DNA of 52,717 nucleotides, taken from Coleofasciculus sp. FACHB-T130. Its GTDB lineage: Bacteria > Cyanobacteriota > Cyanobacteriia > Cyanobacteriales > FACHB-T130. The translations under genes and the position numbers were made by a program. The DNA is taken from assembly GCF_014695375.1 (NCBI RefSeq), contig NZ_JACJOG010000031.1, positions 1 through 52,717 of the forward strand, written 5' to 3'. Numbering within the stretch: position 1 is the stretch's first letter; each line of letters starts with the position of its first letter. Of this stretch, positions 9,626 to 28,226 are shown piece after piece. Below the pieces are notes generated by a model that saw nothing but the letters and a program-made list of their open reading frames with translations, was not told the DNA's origin and ran no database searches.

Positions 9626-9821
9626 GGTAAGGAACTTTTAGGGGCAATCTTTGATTTTAGGATGCTCTAGGCAAGTCTGTTAACTATTGTGTCTTGTTTT
9701 TGCGAGATGGGAAGGCAAGGAGAGTGGAGGATGCGATCGAACCTCTGGCTCAGATGGCTTTTCTAAAGCAGTCACCTAAGAAAAAATGAAAGCAGAAGTG
9801 AAAGTCATCTGCTGATTATTC

Positions 9822-10850
9822 TCAGTGAACGGTAACAATATTTTTTGATGACTTTTTGCGACTAGCAGAAGTAGATTTCGCTTTGGATGGTAAGTCTGTC
9901 AGACTGTCATCCCACTTTTCCACTGTCGGCTTATACAACCAATGCTCCAGTTTAGTGTCCTCGATATAGCCTCTCAGTTCAGGATCGGGCCAAATATGAA
10001 GCCGATCGATACATCCTATCTCTTTGGCAGCTGCTTCAATTTCTTCCCATTGTGTTTTGAAGCGTTCCGCCCATGAGTGTCTAGTCATAATTGAACTGGC
10101 AAATTCTAATCCTGCTGCTACCATCCGTTTTCCATTAGTCCCACGAGCATTGATAGGTTCCCAAAAGATAACTTCTGGCTCGAATTGCATGATTTTCTCG
10201 AAATATCTTCTAAAATCATCTAAAGCCATTTTTGGAGGAGTAGGAGCGGCTGCAACATACAACCGACACCCAGCTTGATGACCTTTGAGTAAAGCTTTAT
10301 AGCGTTCCGAAGGAGGAGGTGCATGAGGTTCAATCTTGCGACTAAGTTCATCATCCAAGTATGGAAGGCTCATGCCAACAATCACGTTGGGATGTTTGAG
10401 AATGTCGAGGTCATTTAGCCATAATGGGCTACGAGTTAGAATTCTGACTCGTTTGTTATGTTTCAAGAGAGCCTGAACAGCACCACGAGTTACGCTTGCA
10501 GTCTGCTTGTTTTGATATGGATCTGTGCCTGAACAGAGTAGAACTACACCTCTACCTTCTCGTGTCGCGTGCCAAGACTTCTTACGACTGAGGGTTTTCT
10601 CTAGTTGATCAGGTATCTCTTCACGGATAAAAAGATACTGTCCCCAGTCCATCTGAGGATCGATTACTCCTTTATCCCGAAGCTCTGCTTGCCTTGTCCG
10701 AATTGCCGGAGTTGAAGGTACATAACAAAAAGTGCATCCATGTAAACAACCTGATGCTACATTGATTACATAGTCACACAAACCTTTTTTATTAAGCGCA
10801 CTTTGCTGAAGTGGATTAACTATTTTTTCGCTTCCTTTAATAACAGACAT
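9822..10850 (-). CDS. Radical SAM protein of the SplB/COG1533 type (three-Cys-motif partner of TcmP)
   Basis: I start at the ATG at 10850 (MSVIKGSEKIVNPLQQSALN), because the longer frame begins with TTG and has no ribosome site. The radical-SAM cluster motif is CLHGCTFCYVPSTPAIR (CxxxCxxC, residues about 38-45), inside NVASGCLHGC. The remaining TIM-barrel strands include VVLLCSGTDPYQ, VRILTRSPLWL, VIVGMSLPYLDDELSRKIEP and VIFWEPINARG, all typical of spore-photoproduct-lyase-like COG1533 proteins. The C-terminal 40 residues are a Lys/Ser-rich tail. The gene diverges from a TcmP-like gene, and such pairing is a known but functionally unassigned association. A substrate cannot be named; DNA repair, RNA modification and a defence-type role are all possible. 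Confidence 0.8.
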   Translation of the reverse strand: MSVIKGSEKIVNPLQQSALNKKGLCDYVINVASGCLHGCTFCYVPSTPAIRTRQAELRDKGVIDPQMDWGQYLFIREEIPDQLEKTLSRKKSWHATREGRGVVLLCSGTDPYQNKQTASVTRGAVQALLKHNKRVRILTRSPLWLNDLDILKHPNVIVGMSLPYLDDELSRKIEPHAPPPSERYKALLKGHQAGCRLYVAAAPTPPKMALDDFRRYFEKIMQFEPEVIFWEPINARGTNGKRMVAAGLEFASSIMTRHSWAERFKTQWEEIEAAAKEIGCIDRLHIWPDPELRGYIEDTKLEHWLYKPTVEKWDDSLTDLPSKAKSTSASRKKSSKNIVTVH

Positions 10851-11020
10851 AGCACTTAGTTTCCTGAATTTTATAAACGTTATCAACAGTAATCAAATAA
10901 AGTTTTTTAAATAATATTCTTCAATTAATTATTGAATTATAGCATAATTAGGTTTTACTTCTATTTAAATATTATATCTTAAATAATACTTAAGGAAAAC
11001 AAATACAAACAAGGAGATTA
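10851..11020. promoter_or_regulatory. AT-rich divergent promoter region of the radical-SAM/TcmP pair
   Basis: This 170-bp spacer between two outward-facing genes is markedly AT-rich compared with flanking lysS and the monooxygenase. It must hold both promoters. Several TATAAT-like stretches occur (for example around 10935 and 10970), but none has a convincing -35 partner. Confidence 0.45.
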
Positions 11021-11899
11021 ATGATGATAAAACAAAGCTTTGGGGGAGATTGGACAGAAGAAAAATTAAGTCGTGTTCGTAAATATTTGGCTGCTTATGC
11101 AACAATTATGAAAGAGTACAATTTTCAATATGCTTATATAGATGCTTTTGCAGGTACAGGGTATAGAACGCTTAAGCAATCTGAAGATGAAACTACATTG
11201 ATGCTACCTGAACTTGTAGAGCCAGAATCTAAAAAATTTTTAGAAGGTTCGACACGCATAGCACTTCAGATACAGCCAAGATTTAGTAAATATATTTTTA
11301 TTGAGAAGGATGAAAGTAAAATCAACGAGCTAAATAAATTAAAAATGGAATTTAAACATCTTTCTAATGATATCCGCATAATTAATGAAGACGCAAATAT
11401 ATATATTAATAATTTATGTGATAGAAATTGGGAAAGTCACCGTGCGGTACTTTTTCTAGATCCTTTTGGAATGCAAATTCGTTGGGAAACGATTACCGCA
11501 ATTGCCAGAACCAAAGCTATTGATCTTTGGTATTTATTTCCAGTCGGCGTAGCAGTTAATAGGTTACTAAAAAAGGATGGGAATATAAATGATTCAATAA
11601 GAAAAAGACTGGATGAAACATTTGGTACAACAGATTGGTATGACAGGTTCTATCAAAAACGGGAGGAAATAAGTTTATTTGGTGGTTACTATTCAGTGAC
11701 GGAAAAAATAGTAGATTGCAACTTAATTGGTCAATATTTTGTTGAACGCTTAAACACAGTGTTTGAAGGTGTTGCAAAAAATCCTCTTTTATTAGTAAAC
11801 TCAAAAAATACCCCTTTATACTTGCTTTGCTTTGCCGCAGCAAATAAGAAAGCCGCAAAGACAGCAATTAAGATTGCACAAGATATTCTGAAAAAATAG
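11021..11899 (+). CDS. tcmP: Three-Cys-motif partner protein TcmP-like (methyltransferase-like fold)
   Basis: A 292-residue soluble protein that reads like the TcmP family: WTEEKLSRVRKYLAAYATIM, YAYIDAFAGTGYR (residues about 40-55), FIEKDESKINELNKL (about 96-110), RIINEDANIYINNL, then VLFLDPFGMQIRWETI (about 146-161). DAFAGTG looks like the glycine motif of SAM-dependent methyltransferases, FIEKDE like the acidic second strand, and DPFG occupies the place of the DPPY-type catalytic motif of amino-methyltransferases. A methyltransferase activity is therefore an inference. AAGGAG precedes tandem ATG codons at 11021 and 11024. Codon use is clearly AT-rich, suggesting transfer together with the divergent radical-SAM gene. 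Confidence 0.8.
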   Translation: MMIKQSFGGDWTEEKLSRVRKYLAAYATIMKEYNFQYAYIDAFAGTGYRTLKQSEDETTLMLPELVEPESKKFLEGSTRIALQIQPRFSKYIFIEKDESKINELNKLKMEFKHLSNDIRIINEDANIYINNLCDRNWESHRAVLFLDPFGMQIRWETITAIARTKAIDLWYLFPVGVAVNRLLKKDGNINDSIRKRLDETFGTTDWYDRFYQKREEISLFGGYYSVTEKIVDCNLIGQYFVERLNTVFEGVAKNPLLLVNSKNTPLYLLCFAAANKKAAKTAIKIAQDILKK

Positions 11900-12050
11900 C
11901 GTTTGCTCCACTTTCTCAGCCTACTTGCCAATCGCTGATGAGTAATATCTAAACATATCCAAATTAGCGATGCCTCAGTAAAGATAAGCGCGATCGCTGT
12001 TAGATGAAGACTAAGGTAAGATTATTAATAGATTGGCAATCTGTCGCTTT

Positions 12051-12165: not shown

Positions 12166-13038
12166 TCAGATGTTGGTAGCGGCAAGGAACTCTCGCATAT
12201 ATTGAGTGACCAGTTGCGGTTTCTCTTGCTGAACCCAATGGCTAGAGTCGGGGATGTATTTAATCGTCAAGTCTTTGACATACGCTTCAGTTCCGTAAGT
12301 CAGTTCTTTACCAAGTGCAGTATCTTGCTCTCCCCAAATCATTAGCGTAGGAACCTGGAGAATACTCCAATCTTGACTGAGCATTCTCTGCTGAAAAAGA
12401 TTGCGATAATAGTTCAGGCTGGCTGTCAGGGCACCGGGTTTTGCAGCAGCTTGTTTGTAGGCATCCAGATCGGCTTTAGTGAAAGCATTCTTATCAACAG
12501 CCATACCCGCGATAGCCGTTTCAATCGATTGGTAATCGAAGGATTGTAAGAGAAATTCTGGTAGCCACGGTAGCTGAAAAAAGAAGATATAGGAACTGCG
12601 TAACAGTTGTTGGGGATTACGCATATTTTCGGCAAATTTGGCAGGGTGAGGCAGATTTAGCACAATCAACTTGTCCACCATCGTGGGGTATGCGTAGGCA
12701 AAATTCCAAGCGATCGCGCCCCCCCAGTCATGACCCACCAGCACGCAGCTAGAGTATCCGAGTCCCTGAATTACCCCTTCAACATCTTTAATAAATTCAT
12801 CCATCACATAAGCCGATTGGTCTGCTGGCTTATCGCTGTCGTTATAGCCGCGCAAGTCAAGGGCGACGACTTTATAATCTTTGGCAAATTCGGGGATTAG
12901 ATGCCGCCAGGAGTACCAAAATTCCGGGAACCCATGCAGCATCAGCATCAAAGGGCCTTCTCCCTGAGTGACGTAGTGCAGCTTAATTCCGTTGCTGGTG
13001 ATATATTCGTGCTTCCAAGAACCCTCTAGCACAGACAT
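12166..13038 (-). CDS. Alpha/beta hydrolase, epoxide-hydrolase-like
   Basis: I choose the ATG at 13038 (MSVLEGSWKH, 290 residues) over the upstream one at 13065, because AAAGGAGG lies five bases before it. The fold is that of soluble epoxide hydrolases and haloalkane dehalogenases: oxyanion-loop HGFPEFW (35-41), VALDLRGYNDSDKP (58-71) and nucleophile elbow VGHDWGG with Asp104 instead of Ser. The catalytic His is in DSSHW (His267) and a charge-relay Asp is likely in IWGEQDTAL. The Asp nucleophile and the HGFPE motif favour an epoxide hydrolase; the residues that would mark a dehalogenase cannot be judged by eye. It is the last gene of a minus-strand run behind an FAD monooxygenase, with 61 bases between them. 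Confidence 0.85.
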   Translation of the reverse strand: MSVLEGSWKHEYITSNGIKLHYVTQGEGPLMLMLHGFPEFWYSWRHLIPEFAKDYKVVALDLRGYNDSDKPADQSAYVMDEFIKDVEGVIQGLGYSSCVLVGHDWGGAIAWNFAYAYPTMVDKLIVLNLPHPAKFAENMRNPQQLLRSSYIFFFQLPWLPEFLLQSFDYQSIETAIAGMAVDKNAFTKADLDAYKQAAAKPGALTASLNYYRNLFQQRMLSQDWSILQVPTLMIWGEQDTALGKELTYGTEAYVKDLTIKYIPDSSHWVQQEKPQLVTQYMREFLAATNI

Positions 13039-13099
13039 AGATACCTCCTTTGCTGTTGTAGTCATGGCATCGGCAATTCATCGCCGATGCGGACACTAT

Positions 13100-26867: not shown

Positions 26868-28226
26868 TTACTTCCGATACTTCCGAGAAAAAACTCGATA
26901 ACCCTTCCCATCCATACTATCCGACGGAGAGAGACTATCTTCCTCCATATTGACTAAATCGAATTGAACATTTTCTGTATAAATTGTTAAAGTAATTCTG
27001 ATTACTTCTAAAAAGTTAATTACCCAAGAACATTCTTCTTGCGAATATTCTTCATAGTATTGAATCAATTTAGCCAAACAAACTTCTAAATGAGTCCGAG
27101 TGGGAGGACAAATTAGAATAATCTTCAGCAGTAGGATTGCTAGAGTAACCGATTTTCCTTCAGAAGCTAATGAAACGAACAGAGAAGAAGGTTCGCCATT
27201 ATTCTTGATCGTTAAACATTCAATTACCCGTTTACAGGTTTTAATCAGCAGAAGGCTATTGATCTCTTCTTCATCAGCCTCTTTATAGATAAATTCTAAT
27301 ATTTTCCACAAATTAGTTTTTAAAGTCTCTACCTGACCTTGGCTTTCAGCCGAATAAAATAAATATTTTAGTAAGCCTTGCTTAAAATGCTTGTATTTCA
27401 ATTCTTTGGTTTGTTTTAAAAAAATATTTGCAATGTTTTCATAGCTAAACATTCCGCGTCTAGCGATAACTTTTTTAACTAAACGGAGTGCTTGATCGCC
27501 CAAAGCCGTAGGATTTTGGTTTTTCTTATTGTTAAATCCCCTAGACTCAGAATGAGCTGTGTACATTGCCAGATCAAACTTAAACTGGTCTTTCAACTGC
27601 TTTGATAAGCCTTTAGCAGCTTGGCGTTGTTCTTCAGGATTTTTCTTATTAACATACTGAGGCGCTAACAAATAAGATGTATAACGGCTCTTCCAATGGT
27701 CTTGCTCTCGATTTTCATATCTAGAAACAAATAGCTTAAGTTCCTCATAATCTTGGCTATTAACGAAATCTGCAAGCCAAGCCTTTAGACATTTTACACT
27801 TGGAGATGAGATGCTATCACAGTTAGCAGAATTAGAAATTAATTGAATTAAATCTTTTAAGGCTTGGTAGTGGCGAGCCAATATCCAGTTATTGAGAAGA
27901 ATATAACAAGAACGCTTTAATGTATTTTTAAATTCTTCTTCATTTTTAGAATCAACAATTGTTTTAAGTGCTTGCAGATGTGCTGAACCAATCGCCTTGA
28001 CTGGATTAATAAATAAAGTTTTAAACTCATACAGAACTAAATCTGGTGCCCATTGTTTAACAATGTCCAAAAAAAACTGACAAATTATTTCCTGAGGATC
28101 TGGAATCTTCGGCACCAGCTTGTTTGAATTAATGAGTGGTTCAGTCTGATGAGTATCTAATAAGACATCCTTAAGCGTGGATGTCTTAAGAACTCTTGAG
28201 TGCTTACTGGTTGCTTGAACTTGCAT
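26868..28226 (-). CDS. Unknown helical protein of 452 residues
   Basis: I do not recognise this protein. It is predicted to be almost all helical and soluble, with no signal peptide, no membrane helix and no obvious catalytic motif. Lys/Glu-rich amphipathic segments recur (for example DQFKFDLAMYTAHSESRG, ALRLVKKVIARRGMFSYENI, TLKTNLWKILEFIYKEADEE). The layout suggests an alpha-solenoid or scaffold rather than an enzyme. The C-terminal tail is charged (SLSPSDSMDGKGYRVFSRKY). The ATG at 28226 is taken because it is the first in frame. Base composition is more AT-rich than the symporter genes next door. It is flanked by long spacers, so it forms its own transcription unit. Confidence 0.65.
   Translation of the reverse strand: MQVQATSKHSRVLKTSTLKDVLLDTHQTEPLINSNKLVPKIPDPQEIICQFFLDIVKQWAPDLVLYEFKTLFINPVKAIGSAHLQALKTIVDSKNEEEFKNTLKRSCYILLNNWILARHYQALKDLIQLISNSANCDSISSPSVKCLKAWLADFVNSQDYEELKLFVSRYENREQDHWKSRYTSYLLAPQYVNKKNPEEQRQAAKGLSKQLKDQFKFDLAMYTAHSESRGFNNKKNQNPTALGDQALRLVKKVIARRGMFSYENIANIFLKQTKELKYKHFKQGLLKYLFYSAESQGQVETLKTNLWKILEFIYKEADEEEINSLLLIKTCKRVIECLTIKNNGEPSSLFVSLASEGKSVTLAILLLKIILICPPTRTHLEVCLAKLIQYYEEYSQEECSWVINFLEVIRITLTIYTENVQFDLVNMEEDSLSPSDSMDGKGYRVFSRKYRK

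Follow-up and report, generated by a model that had tools for sequence, protein, structure and literature searches.

Background

TcmP-type proteins take their name from their co-occurrence with three-Cys-motif proteins. Their NCBIfam family TIGR04474 has a curated cut-off, and a match to it has no attached function. The closest described systems are found in PADLOC, where TcmP and DUF5131 represent the A and B genes of the candidate phage-defence systems PDC-M41 and PDC-M30 (that A and B are the two genes of each candidate was read from the PADLOC names). In the literature searched, we found neither a paper using the term PDC-M41 nor an experimental activity or functional study of any TcmP pair; the accessible parts of two papers deal with other candidates, or hold TcmP in a table only (PMC11514479, PMC12429752), and two papers mention PDC-M30. 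At the level of single proteins, TcmP can be compared with RlmJ, the 23S rRNA A2030 N6-methyltransferase, which acts on RNA, and its partner with spore photoproduct lyase and the PA0069/Rv2578c proteins.

Here we analysed a TcmP gene and its neighbour in a 52,717-nucleotide stretch of DNA from the cyanobacterium Coleofasciculus sp. FACHB-T130 (contig NZ_JACJOG010000031.1), hereafter the window. Like PDC-M41 and PDC-M30, the locus encodes an A component with an adjoining three-Cys partner, but instead of DUF5131 (B) this partner is a CxxxCxxC radical-SAM protein. The first-pass annotation had put the pair forward as an undescribed system, a description that has to be given up, as NCBI had already given a name to TcmP with its three-Cys protein, and PADLOC lists the TcmP and DUF5131 genes among its candidates. 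Since its TcmP is a PADLOC component A while the second gene is without PADLOC match, we regard the window pair as a partner-swapped variant of a listed, apparently uncharacterised candidate; the partner-swapped form itself is absent from PADLOC.

Results

The divergent pair and its surroundings

Both ORFs were found where the first-pass annotation had placed them, diverging from a common spacer (Table 1). The spacer length depends on the start taken for the radical-SAM gene: its ORF in full occupies 9822-10886 on the minus strand, opening at TTG 10886, and the family alignment of the protein begins at ATG 10850 (MSVIKG), so that the spacer measures 170 bp from this ATG and 134 bp from the upstream TTG.

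Table 1. Features of the locus, in window positions
Feature	Positions	Strand	Description
Radical-SAM gene	9822-10850	minus	342 aa from ATG 10850; CxxxCxxC at C35/C39/C42
AT-rich divergent spacer	10851-11020		170 bp, between both start codons
TcmP gene	11021-11899	plus	292 aa; RlmJ-like class I methyltransferase (predicted)
Island missing from same-genus genome G386	9705-11985		edges are BLAST ends, breakpoints unsure
Alpha/beta-hydrolase-like ORF	12166-13065		immediate right neighbour of TcmP; monooxygenase beyond

The pair is poorer in GC (0.424 for the radical-SAM gene and 0.329 for TcmP, with 0.33 and 0.239 at third codon positions) than lysS (0.512; 0.533) and the monooxygenase gene (0.528; 0.534), as had been noted before; the right neighbour, however, is not the monooxygenase but the hydrolase-like gene (0.47; 0.503). 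The names of lysS, hydrolase and monooxygenase were taken from the earlier annotation or recognised by eye. The island's two genes are also unlike each other in composition. Near the island edges lie GCGATCG at 9733 and GCGATCGC at 11990, the latter being HIP1. The complete absence of HIP1 inside the island was considered as a compositional signature and given little weight, because HIP1-free gaps of comparable size occur elsewhere in the window. A further AT-rich ORF of 452 aa is located at 26868-28226 (GC 0.342 in the 27001-28000 bin).

TcmP resembles RlmJ

The window TcmP matched TIGR04474 over its full length with 220.8 bits, about fourfold the cut-off of 53, with the three-Cys-motif gene next door. 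Its predicted structure is confident (pLDDT 91.7, pTM 0.88), and in a Foldseek search RlmJ chains took 11 of the first 12 ranks, the other going to a DUF519 protein; the tRNA methyltransferase Trm1 came next. The probability for RlmJ was 1.00, but the query TM-score reached only 0.38-0.47 with a large rmsd, and identity in the fold alignments was 10-15%. Furthermore, a profile of 59 TcmPs searched against PDB sequences found RlmJ as best match (E 5.6e-5), spanning profile positions 31-178 and thereby the SAM motif, the GS motif and the D-P-Y/F motif IV, and hhalign of TcmP against RlmJ gave a probability of 89.9; the nearby E. coli methyltransferase gene rsmJ, used as a single control, gave no match. 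Because fold, profile and hhalign all point to RlmJ, the earlier reading of DAFAGTG as SAM motif I and of LDPFG as a D-P-F/Y-G motif IV appears sound. Within these motifs (YIDAFAGTG and LDPFG), D41, G45 and D147 are invariant in 34/34 and 59/59 TcmP rows, window included. Thus, TcmP looks like a class I methyltransferase by its likely fold, with RlmJ as nearest solved relative by profile and model, and its substrate would most likely be the amino group of a base. TcmP differs from RlmJ in having DPFG instead of DPPY, in a motif IV that is one residue shorter in the alignment, and in being mobile and paired.

The partner is a radical-SAM protein

The CxxxCxxC radical-SAM identity assigned earlier was confirmed by the Pfam profile PF04055 (39.8 bits, cut-off 29.5) and by a radical-SAM fold, and the three cysteines are invariant in all 15 aligned rows, window included. 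A narrower assignment was not obtained from Pfam or NCBIfam ("COG1533 type" is a label of the first-pass annotation). The protein shares with spore photoproduct lyase and PA0069/Rv2578c the CxxxCxxC motif, the radical-SAM fold and a profile similarity that stays below the curated cut-offs: 12.3 bits versus 27 for the spore photoproduct lyase family PF20903, and, far below, 81.7/360 for PA0069, 60.6/430 for Rv2578c and 44.2/410 for TIGR04470 (radical-SAM mobile pair B). The predicted structure is of middling confidence (pLDDT 70.6). Among the 50 fold matches listed, 45 were radical-SAM or radical-SAM-like by name and five were dehydroquinate dehydratase; the best E-values belonged to the peptide-modifying enzymes SuiB and SkfB, and the best query TM-score (0.54) to spore photoproduct lyase.

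In two Okeania genomes (L003:5897-7852 and L007:736-2700), an intein with a LAGLIDADG domain interrupts the radical-SAM gene in frame; in L003, the one aligned, it sits directly before the third [4Fe-4S] cluster cysteine. This position suggests that the third cluster cysteine matters; it resembles that of the intein in Rv2578c proteins.

TcmP is nearly always paired, with exchangeable partners

Among 386 cyanobacterial genomes, TcmP occurred in 57, the window's radical-SAM family in 13, and DUF5131 in 73. We kept 56 of 61 TcmP places, some of them broken or fragments (omitted were second pieces of G312 and G385 as well as the sub-cut-off G328, G214 and G296), and compared 50 DUF5131 places; any omitted DUF5131 place in a TcmP-bearing genome is, by its coordinates, on a different contig or over 300 kb distant. 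A three-Cys partner was present within 3 kb at 55/56 places, namely DUF5131 at 43 and the window radical-SAM family at 12 (window included), never both, and the sole place with neither is a broken gene. TcmP and partner occur in four relative gene arrangements. Conversely, all ten full-length radical-SAM genes outside the window adjoin TcmP, as does one of three gene fragments (beside a TcmP fragment); the other two fragments are without TcmP. One Gloeothece plasmid and a pair of viral contigs, which may be fragments, carry the radical-SAM gene but no TcmP. On an 80-kb viral contig (L103:1526-6918), a window-family gene likewise without TcmP is located near two DndC/PAPS reductase-like genes.

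Pairing with a three-Cys protein extends to viruses, archaea and other bacterial phyla. A search for viral relatives with the single window TcmP as query found none; the viral set consisted of 94 loci which, less 15 repeat contigs and two radical-SAM-only loci, left 77 distinct TcmP contigs. Of these, 76 carried a three-Cys partner, and the remaining one is cut by the contig end. Partners were called by our own profiles (with L108, L112 and L196 checked against Pfam) as 69 DUF5131, six radical-SAM-type proteins of 252-265 aa with a CxxxCxxxC motif, and one of the spore-photoproduct-lyase type, the latter on L196, where TcmP is followed by a protein exceeding the spore photoproduct lyase cut-off (31.6 vs 27 bits). 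On haloarchaeal plasmids, tcmP lies directly beside the window radical-SAM family in all three cases opened of nine listed. Three of four TcmPs from other phyla, 44-51% identical to that of the window, adjoin DUF5131; the fourth (L004, frameshifted) is DUF5131-paired by our own profile, and the ORF tested there had no Pfam match.

In a tree of 124 out of 136 TcmP rows (omitting those below 225 aa, without labelled partner, or near copies), partner type changes at least seven times, with starred branches forcing three of these changes. DUF5131, which has the motif CxxxxxxCxxC, was itself rejected as the partner in the window, the radical-SAM protein having no match to PF07505 or to any PADLOC model; elsewhere in the source genome, DUF5131 is matched once, on contig C14 (G000:C14:134761-135546), and the genome's only TcmP match is that of the window. 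Nor could DUF5131 and the window radical-SAM family be joined into one family, as hhalign was weak (probability 33.8, E 4e-4). The CxxxCxxxC partners on L108 (5650-6432) and L112 (5880-6641) score over the PF04055 cut-off and under that of DUF5131, and could possibly represent a bridge between the two families, which may thus share common descent. The expectation that TcmP homologues co-occur with radical-SAM genes was hence upheld only in part: a three-Cys partner is nearly always there, but it is mostly DUF5131, whose kinship to the radical-SAM family is weak by hhalign.

TcmP was exchanged at the lysS site

In the same-genus genome G386, whose lysS is 96% identical, the sequences on either side of the island are shared (identity 92% and 96%) and enclose about 46 bases in its place. 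In contrast to this empty site, G387, of another genus in the same family, carries upstream of lysS, in the same orientation, a radical-SAM protein 89% identical to that of the window, and yet its divergent TcmP is only 22% identical to the window TcmP. The G387 TcmP is nearest to that of G167 (68%), whose radical-SAM protein is 69% identical to that of G387. A sister relationship between the TcmPs of the window and of G387 was rejected by an AU test (p 1.6e-34), whereas the two radical-SAM proteins are sisters (support 97/95; tree without the intein-containing Okeania row). Between window and G387, synonymous divergence is lower for the radical-SAM gene (dS 0.31) than for lysS (0.76), which fits horizontal movement. 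Thus, the pair is mobile, and TcmP was swapped at one chromosomal site beside a near-constant radical-SAM gene.

Other cargo was also found at this site. In G390, from the genus of G387, it holds weakly AbiL/PARIS-like genes (L229:2933-4690), namely an ATPase resembling AriA/AbiLi that is broken into two ORFs (best E 3e-13), and a gene that matches AbiLii weakly (E 7e-4). Two ORFs tested from this site in other relatives, again two genomes, gave no PADLOC match. Because TcmP pairs and AriA/AbiLi-like genes share it, the lysS-upstream site looks like a hotspot for defence-like cargo, as judged from few genomes.

Defence matches and neighbourhoods

In PADLOC, the window TcmP is a strong match to PDC-M41A (PDLC04635, E 4.8e-120), a long TcmP tested matches PDC-M30A first, and DUF5131 matches both PDC-M41B and PDC-M30B. 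The window radical-SAM protein gave no PADLOC match at E up to 1; a two-gene search for PDC-M41 or PDC-M30 would therefore be expected to miss the pair.

Several pairs have defence genes in their vicinity, given here as examples. For instance, BREX genes lie one gene away from the TcmP pair on the Nostoc plasmid C052, a PsyrT match lies upstream of the pair in G048 (with a PsyrA match within the same 90-protein scan), and Abi-family genes are near a TcmP+Gp37 pair in Leisingera. On S. meliloti pSymA, an 845-aa helicase is encoded 78 bp before a DUF5131-paired TcmP; we infer it to be Hna, as Hna (SMa2245) and TcmP (SMa2243) stand together in a table in the accessible part of PMC12445080. Among 148 viral neighbour proteins listed, drawn from 39 of the 77 contigs, repressor and regulator families were commonest (12, 6, 4 and 4, which may overlap), alongside DNA helicases (4), integrases (3 and 3) and DNA methyltransferases (3). 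Across 90 neighbours at 11 paired loci, however, the 25 Pfam families listed, of 141, were mostly metabolic, photosynthetic or otherwise non-defence. A survey of this kind had been proposed to look for defence islands, and its outcome is mixed: the pair forms a mobile island, some copies of which lie near defence genes or share a site with them, but most neighbour families are not defence-related.

Discussion

Taking these observations together, we tentatively favour, somewhat short of an even call, a modular and mobile two-enzyme system for nucleic-acid modification which is carried as candidate defence cargo. TcmP would act as an RlmJ-like SAM-dependent methyltransferase that likely modifies the amino group of a base, and its partner as a [4Fe-4S] radical-SAM enzyme distantly like spore photoproduct lyase. 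As both use SAM and one resembles an RNA adenine methyltransferase, they may share a nucleic-acid target, modifying it in turn or as a complex, and the resulting modification could hinder an invading phage or plasmid. The spread of the pair on islands, plasmids and phage contigs together with the replacement of TcmP points to conflict-driven turnover, as would be expected if the pair spreads as defence cargo, and makes TcmP, the more divergent and exchanged part, the likely determinant of target specificity, with the radical-SAM protein as the more constant part. Counted against this explanation are the low TM-scores to RlmJ and the shorter motif IV, the middling pLDDT of the radical-SAM model and its best E-values to SuiB and SkfB, as well as the non-defence neighbours, the radical-SAM genes without TcmP, and the ORFs at the lysS site lacking a PADLOC match.

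Much of the same evidence can be read differently. As phage contigs, plasmids and one chromosomal island all carry TcmP pairs, the pair could mark its carrier DNA against host restriction or BREX-type attack, in the manner of anti-restriction or epigenetic marking; the pair next to BREX genes would fit, as would the methylation of adenine at N6 by RlmJ (per its record name) and the DNA helicase and DNA methyltransferase families among the viral neighbours listed. We consider such self-protection unlikely, since RlmJ acts on RNA and a lone methyltransferase would suffice for simple protection. Moreover, the commonest viral neighbours are repressors and regulators, and such surroundings often hold cargo.

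Alternatively, the target might be a host or phage protein, altered as by a RiPP maturation pair. Radical-SAM enzymes joined to methyltransferases are a common theme that recurs in RiPP pathways, and SuiB and SkfB rank first by E-value for the radical-SAM model. However, the best relative of TcmP acts on RNA, and by query TM-score spore photoproduct lyase tops the 50 fold matches listed, so that we rate protein or peptide modification as quite unlikely; the ORFs examined were those of at least 50-60 aa, a range above small precursor-peptide genes. The similarity to spore photoproduct lyase, along with the viral protein that exceeds the cut-off for that family, could instead speak for a repair module for damaged DNA or RNA, with the radical-SAM enzyme working like a photolyase alongside the methyltransferase. 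This seems very improbable to us, because the patchy mobile distribution of both families among the cyanobacterial genomes, the presence on phage contigs and the swapping of TcmP are unlike housekeeping repair.

Returning to the favoured modification system, its bolder extension would have TcmP modules as a widespread antiphage class. Together with a three-Cys enzyme that can be exchanged (window type, DUF5131, CxxxCxxxC type or spore-photoproduct-lyase type), an RlmJ-like methyltransferase would build an undescribed hypermodified RNA or DNA base, with TcmP as the specificity part swapped under phage pressure. We hold this to be possible, yet rather doubtful.

Through the likeness to RlmJ, the near-constant pairing with interchangeable three-Cys proteins and the exchange at one site, what had been a "hypothetical partner" turns into a testable two-enzyme hypothesis. 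Relatives of the two enzymes occur in bacteria, archaea and viruses. Should the pair indeed install a base modification that is new, the few antiphage chemistries known so far would gain another.

The TcmP genes themselves vary in size and number. A long TcmP (L055:4216-5535) has a C-terminal match to a GMT-like winged-helix domain which, although below the cut-off (24.7 vs 27 bits), hints at nucleic-acid binding. Furthermore, two different TcmP genes accompany one three-Cys partner on the viral contigs L112, L114, L119 and L168 and on the plasmids L100 and L234.
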